Source: an uncultured delta proteobacterium (GTDB lineage Bacteria > Desulfobacterota > Desulfovibrionia > Desulfovibrionales > Desulfovibrionaceae). From it: a stretch of 64,000 bases of DNA. The position numbers and the translations under genes are program-made. Numbering within the stretch: the stretch's first letter is position 1; the number at the start of each line of letters is the position of its first letter. Under the pieces are notes generated by a model. That model saw only the letters and a list, made by a program, of their open reading frames with translations. It had not been told where the DNA came from and made no database searches. Location: NCBI GenBank assembly GCA_900079685.1, contig LT599018.1, positions 888,478 to 952,477 on the forward strand. Direction: 5' to 3'. Positions 4,001 through 42,192 of the stretch are shown here, in pieces.

Positions 4001-4055
4001 CCCAATACAGTATGCGCCGCGACAACACGGCGCATATTTTTTATTGCCCGCCTCG

Positions 4056-5465
4056 CTATGCCAGTAAGAACATCGTCGCGAGACTGAGGAAGAAGAAAAA
4101 GCCCGCGCCGTCGGTGATGGCGGTGAGGAAGATGCTCGAGGCCTGGGCCGGGTCGCGCCCGAGCCACTTGAGGCAAAGAGGAATGGACGCGCCCGCGAGC
4201 GCGCCGAGAATCATGTCCGCAAGAAGCGCGGCCACCATAACCGAGGGAATGGCCGGGGAACCGGTAAAAAGGAACACGGCCAGCCAGACGATAACGCCGA
4301 TGATGACGCCGTTGACGATGCTGATCTTGCCTTCGCGCCACACGGCGTGCAGGGCCTTTTTCCGCTCAAAGCCCTCGGTCGCCAGTTGGCGGATCATCAC
4401 GGCAAGGGCCTGTTGGCCGGTATTTCCGGCCTGGTTCGCCACCATGGGCATGAAAACCGCCAAAATCGCCATCTGTTCGATGGTGCCGTCAAAAAAGAAC
4501 ACGACGCCCGCCGACAGGGCGGAATTCAGCATGTTCAGAAGCAGCCAGGGAAGCCGCATGCGGACGGAATCCTTCCAGGGCGTGTCAACGCTCTCGTCCT
4601 GGCCGGCGCCCACCATGCCGAGCATGTCTTCGCTGGCGGTTTCCTGCAGAATGTCCATCACGTCGTCGTGGGTGACGGCGCCGAGAAAGATCCCGTTATC
4701 GTCCACGACGGGCAGGGCCATGAAGTTGTAATGGCTCATCACACGGGCGACTTCTTCCTCGTCCGTATCGGCGGTGACGGAAATCACGTTTTTCCCGGCC
4801 ATGCGGTCTGCCAGGAAGGTGCCCGGCCGCGCGAGCATGAGGTCGCGCAAGGACAGCACGCCCACAAGCTTGTGATCGTCATCCACGATATACGCGTAGT
4901 AGGGAACTTCCGTATCTTCGATCCCGGCCCGCATCTTGGCGATGGCCTGGTCCACCGTGAGGCGCTGCTCCAGAGCAAAGACCTCGGTGTTCATGACGCC
5001 GCCGGCGGTTTCCGGGTCATACGCCATGAGCGTCCGGATTTCGGCCGCGTCTTTGGTATTCAGGCTGGAGAGCAGCTCGTCCCGATGTTCCTCTTCGAGC
5101 TCGTCCAACACGTCGGCGGCGTCGTCCGGCGACATGGAGGCCAAAAACTCGCCGCCGATCTCCGGCGTCATGCTTTCCAGGATGCCCACCCGGTCGTGCT
5201 CGTCAAGCTCGGTCAGGGCTTCGGCGGCGACGTCCGGATCAATGGCGAGCAGAACCTCGACCTGGGTTTGCAGGGGAAGGGTTTCAAGAAGATGGGCGAT
5301 GTCCGCGGGGTGCGAATAATCAAGCCCTTCAAGAATATGGTCTATGGATTCCGGCTGAGCGGCGGACGCGTTTTCCGCATTTTCCGGAGGGGTGGGGGAA
5401 CCGGACGCATGGTCGGCGATCGCAGCGGCTTCGCGCTCTGTTTCTGTAGTCCGGTTTTCCACCAT
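4056..5465 (-). CDS. mgtE: MgtE-family magnesium transporter
   Basis: A 469-residue magnesium channel/transporter. The N-terminal superhelical MgtE_N domain (HPADIAHLLE, then repeated D-DD-A-VL-EL) is followed by two CBS domains (PYYAYIVDDDHKLVGVLSLR and ALPVVDDNGIFLGAVTHDD) and five membrane helices from about residue 300, including the pore motif P-V-NQAGNTGQQ-LAV. Acidic residues of the N and CBS domains sense intracellular Mg2+ in characterised members. The ATG at 5465 is preferred because AGGTG precedes it by five bases; an upstream ATG at 5525 has no ribosome site. Confidence 0.94.
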   Translation of the reverse strand: MVENRTTETEREAAAIADHASGSPTPPENAENASAAQPESIDHILEGLDYSHPADIAHLLETLPLQTQVEVLLAIDPDVAAEALTELDEHDRVGILESMTPEIGGEFLASMSPDDAADVLDELEEEHRDELLSSLNTKDAAEIRTLMAYDPETAGGVMNTEVFALEQRLTVDQAIAKMRAGIEDTEVPYYAYIVDDDHKLVGVLSLRDLMLARPGTFLADRMAGKNVISVTADTDEEEVARVMSHYNFMALPVVDDNGIFLGAVTHDDVMDILQETASEDMLGMVGAGQDESVDTPWKDSVRMRLPWLLLNMLNSALSAGVVFFFDGTIEQMAILAVFMPMVANQAGNTGQQALAVMIRQLATEGFERKKALHAVWREGKISIVNGVIIGVIVWLAVFLFTGSPAIPSVMVAALLADMILGALAGASIPLCLKWLGRDPAQASSIFLTAITDGAGFFFFLSLATMFLLA

Positions 5466-5553
5466 ACAACACCTGAAAAGTAAAATCGTGAAGCTGCCGC
5501 GCCGATGCCGCCAAGAGCGCTCCATGGCCTTGTTCGCGCCCCCTGCTCATACC

Positions 5554-5582
5554 TTGACGAAACAGCGTAAGCACCCTACATA
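5554..5582 (+). promoter_or_regulatory. Sigma-70-type promoter for nadC-nadA
   Basis: TTGACG at 5554-5559 and TACATA at 5577-5582 are separated by 17 bases and point toward nadC, 70 bases away. This is sequence matching only. Confidence 0.5.
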
Positions 5583-5651
5583 CAGGAAAGCTTATGTGCA
5601 TTCCGGCTGTGGCCCCTGTCTCTATCACCTTCTTTCAAGACTTACAAGACT

Positions 5652-6563
5652 ATGCCAACCGAATCCAGCGACCCAGCAGACCCTTTCGAGAGTTTCTTTG
5701 ACGGCCCCGCCCGCCGCTACCTTTTCGACGCCATTGCCCTCGCTTTTCGCGAAGACGGCCCGGACCTGACCTCCAGTGCAGTGTTTTCCCCCGAAGAAAC
5801 CCTTGATGCGGAAATCATCGCCAAGGCGGATCTCGTCGTCGCGGGGCTGCCCCTTCTTCCCATCATTCTGCAGGAAGCCCTGCCGGAGATGGAAAGCACC
5901 GCCTGCACCTGGGAATGCCACGCCCGCGACGGCGACAAGGTATGCGCGGGAACGCTCCTTGCCACCATCCACGGCGGGGCGCGCAGGATTCTGAAAGCCG
6001 AACGGGTCATTCTGAATTTTCTCTGCCACCTTTCCGGCATCGCGACCCTGACGGCAGAGTATGTGGACATGCTTGCAGGCACGGGCATTACCCTGCTCGA
6101 TACCCGCAAGACCCTGCCCGGGCTCCGCTACCCGGAAAAATACGCGGTTCTCATGGGCGGCGCCAAAAACCACCGCAAAAACCTGGCTGAAGTCCTGATG
6201 CTTAAAGACAACCATAACGACATGGCCGGCTCCATAACTCGGGCCGTTGCCAAACTGCGCGAAGCGTATTCCCCCTGCCCTCCCATCGAGGTCGAATGCA
6301 GGAACGAAGCGGAAGTGCGCGAAGCGGTCGCCTGCGACGTTGACTGGATCATGTTCGACAACATGACCCCGGCCCAGATAACGCAAGCGCTGACCCTGGT
6401 GCCCCGGCACATCGCAACGGAAGTGAGCGGCGGCGTGACCCGGGACAACATCGGCGATCTTGCGGCCGCAGGCAGGGCCGGTCTGACCTATATTTCCGTC
6501 GGCCGCCTGACCCACTCCGCCCCGTATGCGGATTGCAGCATGCGCATAGTAAAAAGGACCTAA
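5652..6563 (+). CDS. nadC: Nicotinate-nucleotide pyrophosphorylase (quinolinate phosphoribosyltransferase)
   Basis: A 303-residue enzyme that converts quinolinate and PRPP to nicotinate mononucleotide, CO2 and PPi in de novo NAD synthesis. Diagnostic segments are ERVILNFLCHLSGIAT, DTRKTLPGLR and the Lys/His-rich GGAKNHR, plus the C-terminal ATEVSGGVT-DNI phosphate-binding region. A short N-terminal extension precedes the catalytic barrel. The upstream ribosome site is weak. nadA starts one base after the stop. nadB (L-aspartate oxidase) is not in the window. Confidence 0.95.
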   Translation: MPTESSDPADPFESFFDGPARRYLFDAIALAFREDGPDLTSSAVFSPEETLDAEIIAKADLVVAGLPLLPIILQEALPEMESTACTWECHARDGDKVCAGTLLATIHGGARRILKAERVILNFLCHLSGIATLTAEYVDMLAGTGITLLDTRKTLPGLRYPEKYAVLMGGAKNHRKNLAEVLMLKDNHNDMAGSITRAVAKLREAYSPCPPIEVECRNEAEVREAVACDVDWIMFDNMTPAQITQALTLVPRHIATEVSGGVTRDNIGDLAAAGRAGLTYISVGRLTHSAPYADCSMRIVKRT

Positions 6564-27981: not shown

Positions 27982-28188
27982 GCGCGACATTTATTCTTAC
28001 CCTAAACGACACTTATTTTTGCCGCGATTTTCTGACGTGATCAGGGGTGTCGGTGGTCGGTGCGCGGGGCAAAATTCGTTCTTCTTTTATTTCCCGCCAT
28101 GTTGCGTTCTCCTTACCCCGTGGGGCTTGCGTTTTTTACCCTGTTACGGCACTTATAGTTTGCCGCTGTAGAACGTGGCACTTAGAAG
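27982..28188 (+). repeat. Transposase-binding-site-like repeats, right prophage end
   Basis: Four related sites in the same orientation: 27982-27998, 28006-28024, 28146-28165 and 28174-28188, sharing CG-CACTTA with a TTTGCCG tail in two of them. Copy 28006-28024 matches the inverse of 43791-43809 at 18 of 19 bases. The outermost may begin with TG at 27978, like Mu ends. Confidence 0.6.
28044..28078 (+). repeat. Direct repeat copy 1 flanking the small coiled-coil gene
   Basis: A 35-base segment that recurs at 28655-28689 with two mismatches. The two copies bracket the gene at 28230-28616, as if that gene were an inserted cassette or tandem remnant. Confidence 0.8.
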
Positions 28189-28616: not shown

Positions 28617-28654
28617 GCCGGGGAACACATGGTGTCCGCAATTTAGCGGCCTCG

Positions 28655-28689
28655 GGGGTGTCGGTGGTCGCTGCACGGGGCAAAATTCG
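28655..28689 (+). repeat. Direct repeat copy 2 flanking the small coiled-coil gene
   Basis: Second copy of the 35-base repeat at 28044-28078 (33 of 35 identical). Its right half also forms one arm of the hairpin at 28674-28719. Confidence 0.8.
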
Positions 28690-28719
28690 ATCATTTTTTC
28701 AGGTCGATTTTGCCCCGTG
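28674..28719. terminator. Hairpin between the accessory gene and dam
   Basis: A 13-bp perfect stem (28674-28686 with 28707-28719) around a 20-base loop, located between two convergent genes. T-rich stretches lie in the loop rather than after the stem, so its terminator role is likely but not certain. Confidence 0.5.
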
Positions 28720-28742: not shown

Positions 28743-29546
28743 TCAGTAGTTCCGAATGAGTACCTCGCCTGCGGGCATATTCTTGCCGTTGCTGCAGGTG
28801 TATTGGGTCTGCACCGCTTCAATGGCAAAGGCTCCGAAGGTCTCGCGCACACCGGGCGTATCGTTCAGGCTGAGAAGGAATTTCCCCTTGATGCCCGCGA
28901 GCTGCGCGGCCAGTTTTGCGAAATCATCCCGGCTGAAGATGCCCTGGCCGTAGCGGTCCTCACAATCCCAATACGGCGGGTCCACGTAGAAAAACGTGTC
29001 AGGCCCGTCATACCGGCTTATGACCTCGGCATAGGGCAGGCATTCCACATACACCCTGGCCAGCCGAAGGTGCGCAGCCGAGAGATACTCCTCTATCCGC
29101 AGCAGGTTCAGCTTGGAAGCCCGGGTAATCCCGTACCCGAAGGTCGGACTTGTGATGCGCCCGCCGAAGCACGCCTGCTGCAGATAGTAAAACCGGGCTG
29201 ACCGCTGAATATCGGTCAACGTGTCCGGATCGGATTTTTTCAGCCGCTCAAACTCCTCGCGGCTGACCAGCACCCATTTGAAGTAGCGGATAAACTCCTC
29301 CAGGTGCCACTGGAGGCAGCGGTACAGGGTGACCACTTCCTTGTTGATGTCGTTAATCACCTCCACCTTGCTCTCGGGCTTTTTGAAGAGAACCCACGCG
29401 GCACCGGCAAACGGCTCCACGTAGCAGGCGTGCTCGGGAATACGCTCAATGATGCGCTTGGCCAGCAGACTTTTGCCGCCCATCCACCCGGCAAGCGGCG
29501 GACGGCTGGAGGTGTTTATGGGAAGATCAGGGATGGAATTTGGCAT
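28743..29546 (-). CDS. dam: Phage DNA adenine methyltransferase (D12 class)
   Basis: A 267-residue N6-adenine methyltransferase. The AdoMet motif WMGGKSLLA is near residue 22, the second motif YVEPFAGAAWV near 42, and the catalytic DPPYWDCED near 193. It follows a Com-like zinc ribbon, the arrangement in which Mu expresses its Mom modification gene under Com control. It probably methylates phage DNA against host restriction. The target sequence (GATC in classical Dam) cannot be read from sequence alone. Confidence 0.9.
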   Translation of the reverse strand: MPNSIPDLPINTSSRPPLAGWMGGKSLLAKRIIERIPEHACYVEPFAGAAWVLFKKPESKVEVINDINKEVVTLYRCLQWHLEEFIRYFKWVLVSREEFERLKKSDPDTLTDIQRSARFYYLQQACFGGRITSPTFGYGITRASKLNLLRIEEYLSAAHLRLARVYVECLPYAEVISRYDGPDTFFYVDPPYWDCEDRYGQGIFSRDDFAKLAAQLAGIKGKFLLSLNDTPGVRETFGAFAIEAVQTQYTCSNGKNMPAGEVLIRNY

Positions 29547-29580: not shown

Positions 29581-29856
29581 TCATTTGTGTTTGGCGGTCT
29601 GGATCACCCGAATGCCGCTCTTGGTTAACAACAGCCTCGCACCACATCTGGGGCAGACTGTCTCATAGTCTTCAGCAACGCCTTTGCCGAGCAGCCTTTT
29701 GCAAGGTCTGCCGCTTGGCAAGAAACACACACACCGGTACTCATCGGCTCTTTTCACTGTAAACACTCTTGTGTGCTTGCCCTGTCCGCTGGTAAACACT
29801 TCTTGTCCCGTCGACGTGGACAAGGCAGCGGCTGATCCGTGCGGGTGGTACCGCAC
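29581..29856 (-). CDS. com: Com-like zinc-ribbon translational regulator
   Basis: The C-terminal part has the Mu Com pattern: RC-C...C-RLLGKG followed by ETVCPRCG, a small zinc ribbon that in Mu activates translation of mom by remodelling its mRNA. The open frame starts with GTG at 29856 without a ribosome site; GTG codons at 29766 or 29757 would give a more typical length near 60 residues, so the start is uncertain. It lies 34 bases before dam, the presumed target gene, and its 5' region overlaps a run of three hairpins. Confidence 0.7.
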   Translation of the reverse strand: MRYHPHGSAAALSTSTGQEVFTSGQGKHTRVFTVKRADEYRCVCFLPSGRPCKRLLGKGVAEDYETVCPRCGARLLLTKSGIRVIQTAKHK

Positions 29857-29925: not shown

Positions 29926-30840
29926 TTATCTTCCTAAAATAGCTTGAGCATGGCGCATATCAAGGTAGTCGGCCCAGGCTTGCATCATATTGCGGCGCTC
30001 GGTCAAAAGCTCCGACCGCTGATATGCGGCGCGGACCTGATTGCGGTCGACGTGGGCGAGCTGGCGCTCGATAACCTCGCTCGGCCATCCCTGCTCGGAC
30101 AAGGTCGACGCAGCCATTGCACGGAAACCATGTGCGCTCATGGCTTCGGGACCGTATCCTATGCGCCGCAACGTCCTACTCAAAACACGGCCCTGCATGG
30201 GCCGGGTTCTGTCCTTTGGTGAGGGGAACAGCCAATTCCCGCCCCCGGTCAGGCCGCGCAGATCGCGGATTACGTCTTGGGCTTGCCGGGACAACGGTAC
30301 AATGTGCGGGCGCTTCATCTTCATTTTCCTGGCCGGGATTCTCCAAATTCCGGTATCCATTTCTATTTCTCCCCATTCCCCTTTGCACAGTTCGCCGGGA
30401 CGGACGAAAGTTAACGCGGCCAACTGCAATGCACATCTTCGTTGTTTTGCCGGGAAGGCTCCTATATCCCGCATCAACTGCCCAATCTGGCGGGGTTCCA
30501 TTATGGCCGCCCGTGGTTGGTGCTTTTTGGGTTTCAGCGCAAAACCTAGATCTCGCGCCGGATTCGTTAGGATAAGCCCGCAGGCGATGCCATAGCGCAG
30601 TGTCTGTGACACATGGCTCCTGACCTTCCGCGCCACTTCATACGTGCCGCGTTCTTCTATCCGGCGCAGAATTTTTAATATCGCCGGAGCTTTGATTTTT
30701 TTGACATCCCGGTCCCCAAGGTCCGGGAAAACCTCGCGCTCAAGGCGCTCCCAGGATTCCTCCGCATACACGGCGCTGCCGGTAAGCATGTGCCGTTCCC
30801 ACCATTCCCGCGCCAATTTCCGGAAAATGACCTCTGCCAT
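29926..30840 (-). CDS. Tyrosine recombinase without arm-binding domain
   Basis: A 304-residue recombinase with a core-binding domain (about 5-100) and a complete catalytic domain: Arg147 (RPGEL), Lys in the 172-176 beta hairpin, His237 and Arg240 (HGFR), His263 (LAHV) and nucleophile Tyr273. The core resembles P4-type integrases, but the N-terminal arm-binding domain (about 90 residues) is absent, as in shufflon and inversion recombinases. AAAGGAGG precedes the ATG at 30840. It begins 32 bases from one of two 43-bp inverted repeats. A Mu-like phage needs no integrase for transposition, so DNA inversion is the more likely role. Confidence 0.85.
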   Translation of the reverse strand: MAEVIFRKLAREWWERHMLTGSAVYAEESWERLEREVFPDLGDRDVKKIKAPAILKILRRIEERGTYEVARKVRSHVSQTLRYGIACGLILTNPARDLGFALKPKKHQPRAAIMEPRQIGQLMRDIGAFPAKQRRCALQLAALTFVRPGELCKGEWGEIEMDTGIWRIPARKMKMKRPHIVPLSRQAQDVIRDLRGLTGGGNWLFPSPKDRTRPMQGRVLSRTLRRIGYGPEAMSAHGFRAMAASTLSEQGWPSEVIERQLAHVDRNQVRAAYQRSELLTERRNMMQAWADYLDMRHAQAILGR

Positions 30841-31173
30841 ATGACCTCCTTTTCTGAGGAGGCTTATCGGCAATTTCCGGCCACTCCCGGCGTGGGATGT
30901 GTCATTGGGGACAGGAATAGGCCGGTTGCAGGAACAGTCTCCGATACCAACGGGAGCGGAAGTATTTTTGCACGTGGCGGATCTCAAAAAATAGACAGCG
31001 CACTGACGTTTGGCGGGACCGCTGTATCCACATCATACGCAGCCGGTTCGTTTGGGTTGCCTGCCTATGTACTGGGGTTGGACACCAACCGCGTCACGCC
31101 GACCGGCCCGACAAACGAGGTCCGTAGCTTCGTCTCGTCGCTCCGCGTCTACGTTGGCCCGCTTGCCTCATGA
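30841..31173 (+). CDS. Alternative C-terminal coding segment A (tail-fibre-like), plus orientation
   Basis: An open frame that crosses the left inverted repeat (encoding FPATPGVGCVIGDR), then a unique region rich in Gly, Ser and Thr, and ends in RVTPTG-TNEVRSFVSS and LRVYVGPLAS. The same ends, but a different middle, occur in the minus-strand segment B. It abuts the recombinase start codon and has no ribosome site of its own, so it looks like a silent cassette awaiting fusion to an upstream constant part. Tail-fibre identity is inferred from phage position and analogy to Mu G segment and plasmid shufflons. Confidence 0.6.
   Translation: MTSFSEEAYRQFPATPGVGCVIGDRNRPVAGTVSDTNGSGSIFARGGSQKIDSALTFGGTAVSTSYAAGSFGLPAYVLGLDTNRVTPTGPTNEVRSFVSSLRVYVGPLAS
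30873..30915 (+). repeat. 43-bp inverted repeat, left copy
   Basis: Matches the inverse of 31396-31438 at 42 of 43 bases. It encodes the shared N-terminal junction of both C-terminal segments, as recombination sites do in shufflons and Mu-type invertible segments. Confidence 0.93.
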
Positions 31174-31419
31174 CGCCAGCGGCCCGACATACACCCGCAA
31201 GCTGGAGACGAAAGAGCGTACTTCGTTCGTGTCGCCGGTGGGGGTGACGCGGGCGGTATCAAACAACTCTCGCCATGCGGCAAGAGTCTGACCAGCCTGC
31301 CCGATACCTCCGCCAACGTTCTGCGGCGCAAAGGGGCCGTTACCATCTGCCCCATAGCATGCATAAGAGCCGGTTCGGCCCGTAAGCCGCCTCTGCCTGT
31401 CCCCAATGACACATCCCAC
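31168..31419 (-). CDS. Alternative C-terminal coding segment B (tail-fibre-like), minus orientation
   Basis: Frame from within the right inverted repeat (GVGCVIGDR) through a unique middle (YACYGADGNGPFAPQNVGGG) to the same C-terminal 27 residues as segment A with one substitution. Its stop overlaps that of segment A in TCATGA. The orientation equals that of the phage tail genes, but an in-frame TAG lies eight codons before the repeat, so no constant fibre part is joined in the present arrangement. Confidence 0.6.
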   Translation of the reverse strand: MGCVIGDRQRRLTGRTGSYACYGADGNGPFAPQNVGGGIGQAGQTLAAWRELFDTARVTPTGDTNEVRSFVSSLRVYVGPLAS

Positions 31420-31438
31420 GCCGGGAGTGACCGGAAAT
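31396..31438 (-). repeat. 43-bp inverted repeat, right copy
   Basis: Inverse partner of 30873-30915 with one mismatch. The pair encloses 480 bases with the two convergent segments. Confidence 0.93.
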
Positions 31439-31478: not shown

Positions 31479-31559
31479 TTACCGCGTAGACTCACAGCGA
31501 CGGCAGACCCACTGGTCGCCGTTGAAAACCATTATGTGGCCGCAGCAAGGGCAGGTCAC
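31479..31559 (-). CDS. 26-residue zinc-ribbon microprotein
   Basis: A GTG-started frame overlapping the stop of the upstream gene (GTGA) encodes 26 residues with two CxxC-type knuckles (CPCC and CRRC) and a central GDQW. The size and knuckles recall the core of Com. Translational coupling supports expression. Function unknown. Confidence 0.55.
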   Translation of the reverse strand: MTCPCCGHIMVFNGDQWVCRRCESTR

Positions 31560-32701
31560 GGAGCTACCTCTTTCAAGACGTGGGCGGGAAAGATCACATC
31601 CAGGGACTTCCGGACGCGGTAATCATCATCCAGGAAGTCGCCCTTGATCGGGTTGCGTTCCCATATGTAGTCGCCGCCCCGGAATTGCGGAGGCAGAATG
31701 CACTCGGAGCGCACAACTTTTTCAGGAGGCCAGAACAGGGATATATAGCTCTTGGTCTGCGGGCAGATGCAACAGCCCTTGGAAACGGCATGGCCGATCA
31801 GCTCCAGGGCGTTCTTGTACCAGCCCTCTTTACCGGCAACTGAACCGGCCAGGACGCAGATGTCCGCGTTGTATGCGCCGTGGCGGCGGTGGGCTTGGGC
31901 CAGGGCCAGCTTGAAAAAGATATTACCGGTCAGCTTCCAGCCAGCATAGCAGCCAAGAACTTTGGAGTGTGTATTGTAGGTGGCGATGCCGTAAACACTG
32001 CCAAGCCATATCTGCGCATCCGGGCATCCCATGAGCAGGCCGGGAGCCTGCAGGATCAGGGTGGCATAATAGGCCGTGAGGTAGCGGCGCTCGCCGGTGA
32101 TCTTCCAGCCCATGTAGAGCCATACAAGGGCCGTCAAAATATCTTCCGACCCGAAAACCCACCAGGGACGCCAGATATGGCCGCGTGCGAAAACCTCTTT
32201 TTTGCCGGTGGCAGCGTTAGCAAAAAGGAGCGGGAAGCCCTGCCATGTGGTGCGCTCCCACAGCCTACAAAGTTTTATCCATTCTTCCCTGGTCGCTTCC
32301 CCCTTGGTCAGTGCCGGAAGACGGCGAAGCACTGCCAGCAGCAGCCCGGAAAGCATATCCCCGGAAAACGGCACGGTGCTGGTTTCCGGCGCAAGGCTGC
32401 GCTTTATGGTGCCGTCATCCTGCACCAGCGCCAGAACGTTTTGCCACTCCGCATGGTCGCCGGTGGCATAGTACAGCATGCCAAGGAATTTGGCGCTATC
32501 ACCGCCCTGGCCGTATATGGAGCGGTCAAGGGTTTGCAGCCGGTCCTTGGCGACGGCAAGCAGCTCGTCCAGGATGTACGGCGAGGGCATGCCCGCCACC
32601 ATGGGTGGGTGCCATAAAAAACGCATGACAAAGCCAAGCAGACAGCGCAAGGGCTGTAAGACGAGTGAATCCACGATGAGGACAAGGTAAAAGAGAATCA
32701 T
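31556..32701 (-). CDS. Unknown 381-residue prophage protein with N-terminal hydrophobic helix
   Basis: Begins with a membrane-spanning or signal-anchor segment (residues 1-30), then about 350 residues rich in Trp, Tyr and aromatic-flanked helices (repeated W---Y and helical hairpins), which recalls an alpha/alpha toroid such as those of glycan-active proteins. I do not recognise the family. It overlaps the tape-measure stop (ATGA) and occupies the place where baseplate and spike genes stand in intact relatives. It may be a cell-envelope acting protein or cargo carried by the deleted phage. Confidence 0.65.
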   Translation of the reverse strand: MILFYLVLIVDSLVLQPLRCLLGFVMRFLWHPPMVAGMPSPYILDELLAVAKDRLQTLDRSIYGQGGDSAKFLGMLYYATGDHAEWQNVLALVQDDGTIKRSLAPETSTVPFSGDMLSGLLLAVLRRLPALTKGEATREEWIKLCRLWERTTWQGFPLLFANAATGKKEVFARGHIWRPWWVFGSEDILTALVWLYMGWKITGERRYLTAYYATLILQAPGLLMGCPDAQIWLGSVYGIATYNTHSKVLGCYAGWKLTGNIFFKLALAQAHRRHGAYNADICVLAGSVAGKEGWYKNALELIGHAVSKGCCICPQTKSYISLFWPPEKVVRSECILPPQFRGGDYIWERNPIKGDFLDDDYRVRKSLDVIFPAHVLKEVAP

Positions 32702-33885
32702 ACGGACACCTCTTCTGCAGGAGGAATGGCCGCGAGGCGCTCACGCCAAACCGCCGCTTCTTCCTCATGAATGTTGTATTGTTCCCGCGCAAAGGCATCG
32801 CCAACAGCAAGGCCCGCAAGGACTCTGGCTGTGAGATACTCCGCGTCCAGCGCCGCGAGTTGTCCGAGCACATAGGCTCGGGCCTCGGCGTTGATTTCTC
32901 CCTCGGTGGGGTTGGGATATTCCGTGAAGTCCTTTGGCAAGGGACCCGGCTCCCCGCCCTCCATAAACGTCAGGTAGTCATCCACCAGCGCCACGATGCC
33001 GAGCAGGCCGGTGATGATCATACCGATGGGCGTGGCCAGGAAACCGGCGTTCATCAGCTTCCACGCGGCCAGAAGGAGGCCCACGCCGACGATCACCTGT
33101 TTCTGGCCGTCACTGAGCTTGTCGAACCAGGACACCAGTGCGCTGATCCAGGTGATCACCCGGTAGGCAAAACCGCTGATAACCGCCGCGATACGCAGGA
33201 TGATCGCGATGGCCCCTTCGAAGATGCGTTTGATCTTGTCGAAGTTTTCCATGATCACTTTGCGTAAATTGGCCACGTCATGGCGGATCTTGCCGATGAA
33301 AGCGAGAGACACGCTTTTGGCCAGCAGCCCCACCATTGTGGAGAGCTTGCCGATTTCCCCCATGAATTCCTTGCTGGCCTTGCCCGCCTCTTTGGCGTCA
33401 ATGCCAGCCACGCTGTACATGGCCCGGAATTCGTCCTTCAGGGCGCTGGCGTCATTGATGAGCGCCGGGATAAGCGAAGGATCAATACCCATGCGGGCGG
33501 CATATGCCTTGCGCTGCATGTCGTTCATCCGCTTCATGCGGTCCCCGGCCACCTCCAGCGCCTTGGCCGCGTCCTTGATGCGCGGGTTTTTGCTGACCAG
33601 CCCCTCCATGCTTCTGGTCACGGCATCAAGGCTGGAGCCGCTTTGCTCCGCGATATAGCCAAGTTCCTGGAGCTTGTCCGAGGTGGTGCCGAGTTTCTCC
33701 GCCTTGCGGGCCATCTCGGCTTCGCCTGAAGCCACCTTGACCAGACCGGCGTAAATACCAACGGCCATCATCTGCACCGTGGCACCGAATGCTGCCACCT
33801 TGGTGAGTGATGCTTTCAGCGACTTCTCGTCAGCCTTAAAACCGACGCTCGCTAAAAATTCCGTAAGTACGCCGCCTGCGCTCAT
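32698..33885 (-). CDS. Phage tail tape-measure protein (short)
   Basis: A 395-residue protein starting with the tape-measure-type N-terminus (GVLTEFLASVGFKADEKSL), a helical, Ala/Lys-rich middle, and two to three hydrophobic segments (about 205-300). It follows the tail assembly chaperone, the usual position. The length is short for a contractile tail, and it stops by ATGA overlap with an unrelated gene, so an internal or 3' deletion is possible. Confidence 0.75.
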   Translation of the reverse strand: MSAGGVLTEFLASVGFKADEKSLKASLTKVAAFGATVQMMAVGIYAGLVKVASGEAEMARKAEKLGTTSDKLQELGYIAEQSGSSLDAVTRSMEGLVSKNPRIKDAAKALEVAGDRMKRMNDMQRKAYAARMGIDPSLIPALINDASALKDEFRAMYSVAGIDAKEAGKASKEFMGEIGKLSTMVGLLAKSVSLAFIGKIRHDVANLRKVIMENFDKIKRIFEGAIAIILRIAAVISGFAYRVITWISALVSWFDKLSDGQKQVIVGVGLLLAAWKLMNAGFLATPIGMIITGLLGIVALVDDYLTFMEGGEPGPLPKDFTEYPNPTEGEINAEARAYVLGQLAALDAEYLTARVLAGLAVGDAFAREQYNIHEEEAAVWRERLAAIPPAEEVSV

Positions 33886-38884: not shown

Positions 38885-39382
38885 TTATTCACCATCCATG
38901 TACCCGACGGTCTCGGGGTAAACGAACTCTATATGGCCGAGCTTGCAGAAGTAGACCATCAACTGGTAGATGCCGCGATGCTCCAGGGGAGTCTTTTGCA
39001 TGGGCACCAGCGGGTAGCGCACGTACTTCTTGTCCTTGGTGTAGGCGAGCGTGCGGTCTTTTTTGCCCACGCCGCGCTCGTTCAGCCACTTGAGGGACTT
39101 GATATTCAGGGCGCGGCCCGTTTCCACAAAGGTCAGGCATTTTTCGGAGATATACTTGAGCAGGCTCTCGCTGCCCGCGCTGGTGACCGGGCGGGTCAGC
39201 CGGGCGAGCTTTTTGGGCGGCAGGCGCAACTGATCCGGCACAACGGCATAGCCGCTCCGTTTCCAGGTATCAGCGAGCAGGTCGTTCACATCACCGAGGA
39301 TCTGCTCCGGCTGCGCGGTCTCCCAATTCAGGGTGGAGTTGCCTACCGGGACGTTCGGGTTGTTGACGAGGCCGTACAGCCC
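38885..39382 (-). pseudogene. C-terminal half of a DUF2184-type major capsid gene
   Basis: From about 39382 the frame reads GGLYGLVNNPNVPVG, then LRLPPKKLARL, and ends YPETVGYMDGE, the C-terminal half of the DUF2184 capsid fold (about 165 of some 300 or more residues). The N-terminal half is missing and the frame joins the MuB coding sequence out of phase. It therefore cannot give a capsid. Confidence 0.85.
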
Positions 39383-39978
39383 TCCACCGCGTCGACGATC
39401 TTCATGAGCAGATCGTCGGTGATGGAAACATCGGGGCAGAAAATGCGGGCCAGCAGTTTGCAGTCCGCCAGATCGCAAGGCTGCGCCTTGACCCAATCCA
39501 GCATGCGGTTGTGGAAACGCTCAAAGCGCTTCAGCGTGCGCGGCAGGTTCTCCTCGCCGATCAGGATGATGGTGGCGAAGCTGCCCTCGTAAATATCGCG
39601 GATGATCTCGACCATGCCCTTCTGCACCAGGAAGTCCGCCTCATCCACGATCAGCGGGCGCTTGGACTTGGTGAGCTGCTCTGCTATCTGGTCCACCATC
39701 TCGGCCAGGGTCTTTTCCGGGACGATGCCCATCTGGCCGAGAACCGTCTGGCACAGATACTTGCGCGTCCACGCGGCCTTGACCTGCACATAATAGGCTT
39801 TGTGCTTGTTGGCCGCGTAGGCTGCCGCCGTGCTCTTGCCGACGCCCGACTTGCCGTAGAAGGCAGCCATGCCCGGCAGATTGTCGCGGCGCTGTTTCAC
39901 CCGCTCCACCAGGGAGGAGAAAGCGGCCACGTTCCGCAGAGGCGCTGTTGTGGGAGGAGTGGTCTGTTCTTGCGTCAT
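39343..39978 (-). CDS. MuB-like AAA+ transposition protein with deletion-altered C-terminus
   Basis: A 211-residue ATPase: Walker A YGKSGVGKST (41-50), Walker B LIVDEAD (109-115) and a sensor-like region IILIGEENLPRTL. It delivers target DNA to MuA and gives target immunity in Mu. At Gly200 the frame crosses the deletion junction into capsid DNA and ends with 11 foreign residues, so any C-terminal part is lost. The ATPase core is intact. Starts 12 bases after muA. Confidence 0.85.
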   Translation of the reverse strand: MTQEQTTPPTTAPLRNVAAFSSLVERVKQRRDNLPGMAAFYGKSGVGKSTAAAYAANKHKAYYVQVKAAWTRKYLCQTVLGQMGIVPEKTLAEMVDQIAEQLTKSKRPLIVDEADFLVQKGMVEIIRDIYEGSFATIILIGEENLPRTLKRFERFHNRMLDWVKAQPCDLADCKLLARIFCPDVSITDDLLMKIVDAVEGCTASSTTRTSR

Positions 39979-39990
39979 GAGTCTCTCCTG

Positions 39991-42192
39991 TTATGAGATG
40001 GCGAAGGCTTCTATGCCGTCAAAGGCACTCGGCCCGAAATCCGTGTACATGCTCAGATGGACCCGGTATTCTATAGTGCTCTGGTAGCCCATGTTCCATT
40101 TGACCTCGGCGGGAGTGAGTTTGCCCCCCTCGCGCTGACGCTGGACCAGGGACATGTGCGTCACAAAGGCTTCTTTGCTGCCCAGGTCGTTCTGTGTGAT
40201 GTTCTGCAGCTTGGGGATGTTGTTCAGCACCCACTCTTCGGTAAAACGCTGCCGGTCAGCGGCCTCGGCAGCCGTCATGGGCGTGGGTTTTGCAAAGTCG
40301 CGGGAGGCAGCGGCAAGGGCTGCTTCTTCCAGGGCGGGGGTGGAGTATTCTTCTGTCGGAAGGTTCGCGGCCCGGGCAGCCCGGTTGACCGCAGCCGTCT
40401 TGGCCTTGTGCTCAAGGATGAGCTGCGCGGTCTCATACGGCTTTTGCTCGCGCACGATGCGCTTGCCTTCCTTGACCTTCTCGCCAATGACTGCCTTCTG
40501 GTGCGCCTTGCGTGCGAGCGCCAGCTCGCGCAGGGAGACGCCGGTGAGTTCCGGATCTTCGGCCCGGCAGATGAACATGCCATTGAGGTCGAACACGTAA
40601 ACGTATCCGGCGTTCTGCTCGTCGAGGCGGATCTTCACATCCTGGCCTTCCAGCCCGCCGAGCAGCGCCGCGTTGTAAACACCGTTGTTGGCACGCAGAC
40701 CCTTTTTGGTAACAGCGCGGATGCCGTTATTGCCTGCCAGCGGCATGAGGAGCATATCCAGCGCTCGCTCGTCCGGAACGGATCGGATCACGCCCTCGGC
40801 TTGCGCGGCTGCATCGTTGGGAGGCATGCCGAGTTCGGAATGCTTTTTCTCGTTGTAGTCGTCCTGGCACCATGCATCGCAGATGGCCTGGAACTCTTCC
40901 GGCGTATAGCGGAACTCCTGCACCGGAGTCGCGCCTTCCTTGCGGCTTACCCGCTCGGCAAAGGATCTGCGGCTCTCAATGGCTTTTCTGTCCGCGACGG
41001 AGTGGCCTATGAAGCCTTCCAGCCTGATGCAGAAGCCATGCTGGAAGGTCTGGAAGAACCGCTCGATATGCGGCTTCTCTTCCGGGGTGAAGGGCGTGCA
41101 CCAGTTAGGCATGATGTCGAGATCGTGAACGACGCTGGTCACCTGAAGGCTGGTGTAATCTGAACCGTTGTCCATTTTGATGCTTTCGGGGATGCCGAAG
41201 GAGAGAAGGGCCCGGCGCAAAAGAGCGCAGACGCCCTGTGCGCTGGACGTTCTGGCCAGATGCAGTATGCCCCGGCGCGTGGAAACGTCGATGCAGCCGA
41301 TGAGGGTGTACCGCTTGCCGTCCGCGAGGATCACGTCCGTGGGGCTGGAGTCCAGCTCCCAAAGCTGGTTGACGCGGTTAATGCCAGCAGAACGGCTGCC
41401 AGCTGCGGATTGGTATTTGCTGCGCCAGCCGTCCGGGTTCTGAATTTTCAGAATGGCCTGCTCGTTGTCTTCGCGGTACTGCTTCATCCACCGCTGCAGG
41501 CTGCGCAAGGTAGGCAGGCGCTGCCCTTCAAACTTCGCTTCCAGCGCTTCCATGACGGATGCGGCGGACACATCGTAAAACTCTATGATTTCAGCAATGA
41601 TGTATTCCGCCATCCCGGGCGTCGAGTCGATGACACCGGAACCTTTGCGGTGCTGCCCGTGTTTACCACTCAGAGCGGCCACGCCTTTTTCCAGAATGCG
41701 GTCCTCCCAATTGGTGAGGGATGAGCGGCATACGGATGGGATGAGGTTGCGTACCCAATCGGGCACGGTGATCGCGCCACGGTTGTATTCGTGACAGAAA
41801 ACTTCATATGCGGAGGTGCGCGGCGTGCCGGAAGCAGCGCCGAATTCCCGCGCCATACTCACCAGCAGCGCCCGGGCGCTCGCCCGCTCGCGCTTGCGTT
41901 CCGGAATGTTGGCCAGGGTGTTTACGGTAAACAGTACCGGCGCGATATGCGGATGCAACGCGGAGTTTCTGTTGGGCTGCGACTGCGCGATCTCGGTGAC
42001 GATGGCGGTGGCAATGGCCTGCCGGGTGGCTTCCGGCATGGATTCAAGCAGCCATTCGTGACCGCCGCCCTTTCCCTTGCGTGGGCGCGACATCCAGCCT
42101 TCACGAGAAGCCTTTTCGAGCACAGCCTTCCGCGTAAACGAAAGCAGCTCGCAAAGCTCTTTCGTGGTATAAGCCGTCAGTACACCCGCCAT
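39991..42192 (-). CDS. MuA-like DDE transposase
   Basis: A 733-residue transposase. N-terminal Mu-type winged-helix DNA-binding domain (YTTKELCELLSFTRKAV, GWMSRPR), a second helical DNA-binding domain (about 170-250), catalytic core with Asp281 (LWELDSSPTD), Asp341 (MDNGSDY) and Glu377 (KPHIERFFQ), then a beta-barrel and a C-terminal helical domain that would bind MuB and ClpX. All key residues and a full-length frame are present, so the element may still transpose. Confidence 0.95.
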   Translation of the reverse strand: MAGVLTAYTTKELCELLSFTRKAVLEKASREGWMSRPRKGKGGGHEWLLESMPEATRQAIATAIVTEIAQSQPNRNSALHPHIAPVLFTVNTLANIPERKRERASARALLVSMAREFGAASGTPRTSAYEVFCHEYNRGAITVPDWVRNLIPSVCRSSLTNWEDRILEKGVAALSGKHGQHRKGSGVIDSTPGMAEYIIAEIIEFYDVSAASVMEALEAKFEGQRLPTLRSLQRWMKQYREDNEQAILKIQNPDGWRSKYQSAAGSRSAGINRVNQLWELDSSPTDVILADGKRYTLIGCIDVSTRRGILHLARTSSAQGVCALLRRALLSFGIPESIKMDNGSDYTSLQVTSVVHDLDIMPNWCTPFTPEEKPHIERFFQTFQHGFCIRLEGFIGHSVADRKAIESRRSFAERVSRKEGATPVQEFRYTPEEFQAICDAWCQDDYNEKKHSELGMPPNDAAAQAEGVIRSVPDERALDMLLMPLAGNNGIRAVTKKGLRANNGVYNAALLGGLEGQDVKIRLDEQNAGYVYVFDLNGMFICRAEDPELTGVSLRELALARKAHQKAVIGEKVKEGKRIVREQKPYETAQLILEHKAKTAAVNRAARAANLPTEEYSTPALEEAALAAASRDFAKPTPMTAAEAADRQRFTEEWVLNNIPKLQNITQNDLGSKEAFVTHMSLVQRQREGGKLTPAEVKWNMGYQSTIEYRVHLSMYTDFGPSAFDGIEAFAIS

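Follow-up and report, generated by a model that had tools for sequence, protein, structure and literature searches.

A silent pair of tail-fibre tips beside an armless tyrosine recombinase in a Mu-like prophage, probably the orphaned part of a four-tip shufflon

The window analysed here, a 64,000-nucleotide stretch of DNA (C1:888478-952477 of the 4.0-Mb genome G000), contains a short Mu-like prophage in which two convergent coding segments are enclosed by inverted repeats and adjoin a tyrosine recombinase. This cassette is very probably the silent, recombinase-proximal pair of a four-tip tail-fibre shufflon that belongs to Mu-like and related phages of the same bacterial family and was orphaned here by a deletion. 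The anatomy of the cassette, its homology to the loci of related phages, the deletion and the DNA-level conservation of the sites are established.

The cassette and its prophage

The prophage lies at ~28-44 kb of the window on the minus strand, with its genes in the order MuA, AAA ATPase, capsid, sheath-type (DUF3383), tube-like and tape-measure genes, cassette, recombinase, Com-like gene and D12 methyltransferase (Table 1). The AAA ATPase is, by its position, presumably MuB-like, and the overlap of its gene with the truncated major capsid gene points to a second large deletion, one of head genes, as a second sign of decay. No portal, terminase, baseplate or fibre gene was recognized among the proteins scanned, a subset of the prophage ORFs, and the ORFs read, and the 381-aa ORF next to the deletion junction has no match among the ORFs of the related loci L217, L051, L101, L109, L102 and L099. 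Near the left edge of the prophage within the window, a 48-nt direct repeat (88%; 28041-28088 and 28652-28699) flanks an ORF with a zinc-ribbon-like end.

Table 1. Features of the prophage and its cassette (positions are those of the window)
Feature	Position	Strand	Remarks
MuA-type transposase	39991..42192	-	Mu-transpos_C, rve, HTH_Tnp_Mu_1
AAA ATPase gene	38885..39978	-	overlaps major capsid gene that lacks the N-terminal part
Tape-measure gene, deletion-cut	32698..33885	-	tape measure up to residue 336, followed in frame by 59 residues from another source
381-aa ORF between deletion junction and cassette	31556..32701	-	no family match above cut-off
26-aa zinc-ribbon ORF immediately before cassette	31479..31559	-	compare zinc ribbon before the L037 silent pair
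Distal inverted repeat, putative crossover site	31396..31438	-	43 bp
Silent tail-fibre tip segment, 84 aa	31168..31422	-	convergent with the other segment
Silent tail-fibre tip segment, 94 aa from GVG	30889..31173	+	reads away from recombinase
Recombinase-proximal inverted repeat, putative crossover site	30873..30915	+	42/43 identical to distal arm
Recombinase leader, predicted hairpin pairing Shine-Dalgarno GGAGG	30838..30872	-	5/5 GGAGG bases paired
Armless tyrosine recombinase, 304 aa, intact	29926..30840	-	Phage_int_M + Phage_integrase, no arm domain
Com-like zinc-ribbon protein, Mu type	29581..29856	-	below Pfam cut-off
D12 adenine methyltransferase	28743..29546	-	downstream of recombinase as in L037

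An earlier sequence-only reading had noticed the two 43-bp repeats, identical at 42 positions, and their match is confirmed and lies far beyond chance; the 33-bp repeat core (up to three mismatches) occurs in only these two places in the window, with a mean of 0.00 in 100 shuffles. The CGGCGTGGG core of the proximal repeat is common to the sites near the armless recombinases of several relatives. The two convergent segments are built as that reading had described them: the first nine residues are common, 26 of the last 27 are the same, the middles differ (14 of 59 residues alike), and the two stops overlap in TCATGA (31168-31173). The two segments agree at 56 of the 81 bases in their last 27 codons, and of the 26 residues in common there, 17 are encoded by different codons, compared with a site of 24 identical bases; with synonymous changes at 0 of 8 codons in the site versus 17 of 26 in the tip ends (Fisher p = 0.003), both segments have evidently been kept for long as protein and the site as DNA. 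A constant fibre gene upstream, a point that the earlier reading did not raise, is absent for both segments, as judged from the flanking frames: on the right flank, the frame is closed by stops near the repeat, where the 26-aa zinc-ribbon ORF lies, and on the left flank, the frame is open but runs back over the start of the recombinase in antisense.

The neighbouring tyrosine recombinase had been read as lacking an arm-binding domain, and the domain search agrees, with Phage_int_M and Phage_integrase as the only families matched. Five residues (R147, H237, R240, H263 and Y273), which we take to be the catalytic ones, are invariant in the alignment of 13 sequences including that of the window. 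Comparison with three relatives reveals no stop, differences of 0.56-0.59 at third codon positions and 0.17-0.24 at the first two, dN of 0.20-0.24, and dS of 3.7 in one case and beyond estimation in two, so that the recombinase is not visibly decayed. There is no serine recombinase near the cassette, and the earlier statement that a Gin-type gene is missing holds for the neighbourhood, the sole Resolvase-family match in the genome being at C1:2951059, far outside the window.

Related loci and the deletion

The layout from which the cassette appears to derive can be seen in a 42.5-kb IMG/VR record (L037 and L217) that carries MuA at 4033-6180, a recombinase 70% identical to that of the window and a similar methyltransferase, and is collinear with the window prophage in sheath, tube, tape measure, recombinase and methyltransferase. 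Between the tape measure and the recombinase, this record has baseplate genes and a 312-aa fibre gene, the last 97 residues of which are enclosed, together with a convergent alternative tip, by 39-bp inverted repeats (37/39). Next in order are the fibre-assembly genes and a 27-aa zinc ribbon, and between these and the recombinase stands a second repeat pair (37/37) that encloses a further two convergent tips. Stop codons precede this pair, which lacks a constant part. It is the position of this second pair, with the zinc ribbon before and the recombinase after, that the cassette in the window occupies.

The full order, that is, a constant fibre gene with its tip, an inverted tip, a second, silent pair and then the recombinase, is found in four phages (L037, L051, L101 and L100), each with four dissimilar C-terminal segments bounded by repeats, compared with two in the window. 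Fibre-assembly genes lie between the pairs in three of these, namely L037 and, with assembly-like genes recognized by eye, L051 and L101; L100 (genome G279) has a different site and a tip family ending in LTPAIFLGV, its recombinase belongs to the same clade, and no assembly gene was identified there. The sites follow the order + - + - in L037, L051 and L101, and so do the tips in L100. One-pair forms, in which the fibre's pair is directly beside the recombinase, occur in L099 (from the window's genus), L052 and L109, the fibre-linked tip of the latter being frame-broken; in L064 and L055, the pair lies behind what is, by eye, an assembly-like gene. A constant N-terminus is joined to a variable C-terminus at the site in L037, L051, L101, L099, L109, L102 and L052, an arrangement that is absent in the window. 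The tips adjoin the recombinase in 12 of the 14 full-length armless loci (13 rows of the tree described below and L055, where the recombinase has one stop); in L102, the pair is ~1.5 kb away, and in L105, a keyword look over 2.6 kb upstream of the recombinase found no recognizable tips. The suggestion, made from the letters of the window alone, that the cassette has the build of a shufflon is borne out by these relatives, which display a tail-fibre shufflon layout with a dedicated armless recombinase, and the check proposed with it, a search for the repeats joined to a tail-fibre gene, turned up repeats of the same kind joined in this way.

Four cassettes (L056, L058, L218 and L219) come without such a recombinase in the DNA fetched. 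For L056 and L218, one is present elsewhere in the same genomes; for two of the four cassettes, the genomes are G119 (82% complete), with none at E 1e-70, and G280 (62%), with a best match of 44%. The paired-site pattern, searched at spacings of 500-560 only, gave six loci in IMG/VR, of which L217 is real and the other five (L212-L216) do not read as fibre tips and were taken as chance; at the same spacings, the pattern occurs at nine places in 7 of the 288 genomes of the family, with the reversed control found in one. No strain with the opposite orientation was found: L100, the copy in G279, and the IMG/VR locus L110 are identical throughout the 12.2 kb compared. Genome G061 has two recombinase loci (L103 and L104) with 83% identity along 1.3 kb, and 134 bases at the start of its contig C1 match the end of C6 at 99%; a tip lies at or beside the end of L230, L232 and two G061 contigs, where mixed orientations are a possible cause.

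Association with Mu is narrower than the family of loci. Six of the 12 genomes and records searched contain MuA at E 1e-40, and in only two of these, the L217 record and G040, is it on the contig that carries the recombinase; it is absent at this threshold in G117, G043, G089, G039, G093 and G279; the Mu DNA-binding family is matched in 3 of 10 (G089, G061 and the L217 record). By these matches, only the window, L217 and L051 are shown to have a Mu-type phage.

Residues 1-336 of the window tape measure are 70% identical to the 549-aa tape measure of L217, to which its last 59 residues are unrelated. These 59 residues are 42% identical (E 5e-4) to the end of a protein just before the cassette of G284, the only match besides self among the 199 genomes searched; this protein, read in L064, resembles by eye the assembly protein of L037, which matches tail-fibre and tail-fibre-assembly families. 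This comparison maps a deletion by which a fibre-assembly-like end became joined in frame to the tape measure. The stretch lost between these two genes takes in the baseplate genes, the fibre and the first pair, and it is the loss of the fibre gene and first pair that leaves the cassette orphaned, with no fibre to switch.

A search of the same genome at BLAST sensitivity found no replacement: neither the cassette nor the site recurs elsewhere, and a constant fibre that would match is absent. A fibre fragment matches at C1:1592781-1592894 (71% over 38 residues), and two other matches are weak (27%, E 5e-5). The fibre that contains the fragment (L068, G000:C1:1592494-1592898) was considered as a partner and rejected; its boundary, DVGGVHGD, is similar, but it has no site strings, and no inverted partner or repeat was found.

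Recombinase clade, sites and alternative readings

In a tree of 31 rows, the armless recombinases, 13 in number, group as a single clade with support of 100/99; each of the remaining 18 rows has 97 or more open codons preceding the shared region. Among the armless rows checked, L099 has 125 open codons upstream, without a Pfam domain, and its start was placed by the leader. In the nearest outgroup relatives of the clade (~49-54% identity), there is space for an arm domain. Of 348 genomes of the order searched with a profile, 14 pass E 1e-110, and all of them belong to the window's family. The full-length armless type is present in 11; G126 and G129 have arm-length frames, and in G088 the catalytic part is fused to a DUF4815 protein. 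The last of these (L106, G088:C89, 283-2574) was rejected as a full-length member, the catalytic domain being fused in frame behind the DUF4815 protein, and is another sign of deletions at this spot.

Among the IMG/VR matches listed, the armless members are L037 and L110: the profile query placed L110 (68%) among the best 80 of at least 600 matches, and queries with a single tip or the recombinase gave L037 as the only close relative, the others being at 35-43%. In 50,697 phage records, the tip protein has no match and the recombinase has 392, all below 60% identity, with 42% the best among the 20 of the 392 that were listed. The GTDB scan with the window recombinase produced 12 relatives that are 31-52% identical.

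The leaders of the recombinase genes share a predicted fold. Pairing takes in all five GGAGG bases in 11 of 14 leaders; L099 and L055 have four of the five paired, and L102 three of the four bases of AGGA. Eight leaders gave z from -2.6 to -4.7 against shuffles (-3.34 in the window), and the stems of L102 and L105 seem, by eye, to be kept by changes on both sides. The predicted stem is likely to be a translational brake on the recombinase.

The sites are conserved as DNA, beyond the need of coding. In 13 pooled pairs, synonymous changes affect 10 of 98 same-residue codons in the sites versus 161 of 259 in the shared ends of the tips, a count that leaves out 2 of the 15 pairs (the first pair of L051, and L056), where the ends differ in length and need gaps, as well as the broken tip of L109 and the tips of L100, L055, L103 and L104. 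The pattern used to collect the sites itself fixes codons 1 and 2 and most of codon 3; once codons 1-2 are set aside, the changes amount to 10 of 72, and with codons 1-3 set aside to 10 of 59 (p ~2e-10). The 31 sites have one conserved and one variable side, with most of positions 0-8 fixed by the gathering pattern itself.

The tips, by comparison, are diverse, with a median middle identity of 22% over 496 tip pairs. An exception is L051, where the expressed tip has 42 of 49 middle residues in common with the silent tip adjoining the recombinase, and the two agree at 96 of 99 and 108 of 119 bases. These near-copies indicate that the two pairs exchanged or copied tips, and they call for copying or duplication, which goes beyond what inversion alone provides. 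In L037, exchange between the pairs is doubtful, since the central part of the site is not the same in pair 1 as in pair 2. A profile of 29 tips, among them the 94-aa tip of the window, which as a single query matches no PHROG, has one match at E <=1, a solved short tail fibre (9cuy, E 1.7e-6), with profile positions 3-72 aligned to residues 224-294 of the 554 in the chain; taken singly, one of the 29 tips matches the tail-collar family and one a family without function.

Several of these observations could be accommodated by other explanations. The repeats and paired tips might be static remnants of fibre-gene duplication that gene conversion has kept similar, with no inversion involved, and the near-copy tips of L051, which attest to copying between cassettes, would fit this, as would the failure to find an inverted copy and the four pairs without a recombinase in the DNA fetched. 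Such an origin is unlikely, however, given that the sites have little synonymous divergence and the shared ends of the tips much, and that convergent pairs recur in many phages, with one recombinase clade beside most of them. Less probable still is that the recombinase is an ordinary prophage integrase which came to lie beside the repeats by chance: MuA, present in the window phage, the L217 record and the L051 contig, makes an integrase unnecessary there, the arm domain is missing across one whole clade, and the tips adjoin the recombinase in all but two of the 14 full-length loci, even though the nearest outgroup relatives (~49-54%) do look like ordinary integrases.

The least probable alternative, to which we give hardly any credence, is that the cassette is a regulatory on/off switch for the recombinase or neighbouring genes and not a store of tips. 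The distance of only 32 bp between the left repeat and the start of the recombinase would fit such a switch, as would the recurrent Shine-Dalgarno hairpin in its leader, but both segments are coding under protein-level constraint (26 of 27 residues, with 17 synonymous changes), and the single sigma-70-like match of the scan (31559-31531; 0.5 expected) is outside the cassette and reads towards it. The silent pair of a tail-fibre shufflon, orphaned by deletion, remains the preferred reading.

The proposed switch and known systems

We infer that inversion happens in these phages, that it is carried out by this recombinase and that the tips set adsorption. In the intact relatives, the armless recombinase would recombine inverted sites at the conserved GVGxVxGD coding boundary and so join different C-terminal tips in frame to the constant fibre N-terminus. 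As deduced from the + - + - orientation of the sites, one inversion of the first pair would swap its two tips, and an inversion between the outermost sites would bring a silent tip to the fibre, turning the middle region over, which the inner sites, mutually inverted, could turn back. Exchange between pairs may be limited to phages with matching sites, such as L051. In the window, the intact recombinase could flip the silent pair without changing any fibre. Of the earlier idea of a Mu-like phage with a tyrosine-type tail switch, the build is supported and a working switch in this genome is not, the fibre gene and first pair being gone.

A more inclusive scheme is put forward tentatively: an expressed pair and a remote silent pair (+ - + -), an invertible block of assembly genes, a hairpin-limited recombinase, and an orphan that is a possible donor for a co-resident phage might form a whole. 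With the assembly-gene block itself invertible, a silent tip would need two inversions, the exchange between pairs and then the restoration of the block. The switch of the intact relatives looks built to swap the fibre tip and hence the cells attached to, and the conserved sites, the four-tip layout and the leader hairpin yield concrete predictions.

In phage Mu (Gin), P1 (Cin, G segment) and p15B (Min), serine recombinases invert the C-termini of tail fibres, and in Mu the chaperone genes are inside the invertible segment. The assembly genes here, in three phages, lie between two pairs. The likeness to the Gin, Cin and Min systems, as these are also described in PMC6109161, consists in the tail-fibre C-termini and the tail-fibre region of a Mu-like genome, and the difference in the recombinase, which is of the serine type there and of which no such gene lies near this cassette. 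If the proposed explanation is true, one function is served by two recombinase families in the tail-fibre region, where Mu uses the unrelated Gin.

The R64 shufflon, as described in PMC11852207, is similar in having a tyrosine recombinase and C-terminal exchange, and its several asymmetric sites with a conserved part (the sfx sites of Rci have a conserved core and one conserved arm) may have a counterpart in the sites here. Its target, however, is a pilus adhesin (pilV), whereas the tip profile here matches a short tail fibre and a tail-fibre gene ends in such tips in the relatives. For prophage 03 of Pseudomonas fluorescens Pf-5, a recombinase is compared with Rci in a description that mentions no invertible tail segments (PMC2647930), inversions at prophage tail fibres have been detected in four species of Proteobacteria (PMC5903667), and the main text of a 2025 account of Mu-like prophages of Desulfovibrio piger covers diversity-generating retroelements and mentions no shufflon or recombinase (PMC12724379).

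The closest parallels are the Rin-type loci. The Rin shufflon of Bifidobacterium prophages, which form siphovirus particles, is reported as the first phage-encoded tyrosine-family invertase and is likewise without an arm domain (PMC6109161), and a Rin-type locus in Eggerthella lenta prophages has a tyrosine recombinase that acts on the C-termini of receptor-binding proteins (PMC8778435). Tail shufflons with a tyrosine recombinase are therefore already known, and the novelty claimed in the sequence-only reading is to be narrowed accordingly: in the open-access literature, to which the search was confined, no description of such a switch in Mu-like phages was recognized. According to the descriptions in PMC6109161 and PMC8778435, the Rin loci resemble those analysed here in that a phage-borne recombinase lies beside alternative C-terminal receptor-binding segments and short repeated sites join these to a constant N-terminus, with the armless form described for Bifidobacterium (PMC6109161), and differ in belonging to actinobacterial prophages, with 11-bp or 8-bp sites and the variable genes in one block (PMC6109161, PMC8778435). 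The loci here belong to Mu-like phages where tested positive, and have sites with the CGGCGTGGG core, convergent tip pairs and a silent pair apart from the fibre. If our explanation is true, tail switching by tyrosine recombinases extends from actinobacterial phages to Mu-like phages of another bacterial family; what is new is the link to a Mu-type transposase in three phages, the silent pair set apart and the hairpin over the ribosome-binding site of the recombinase.
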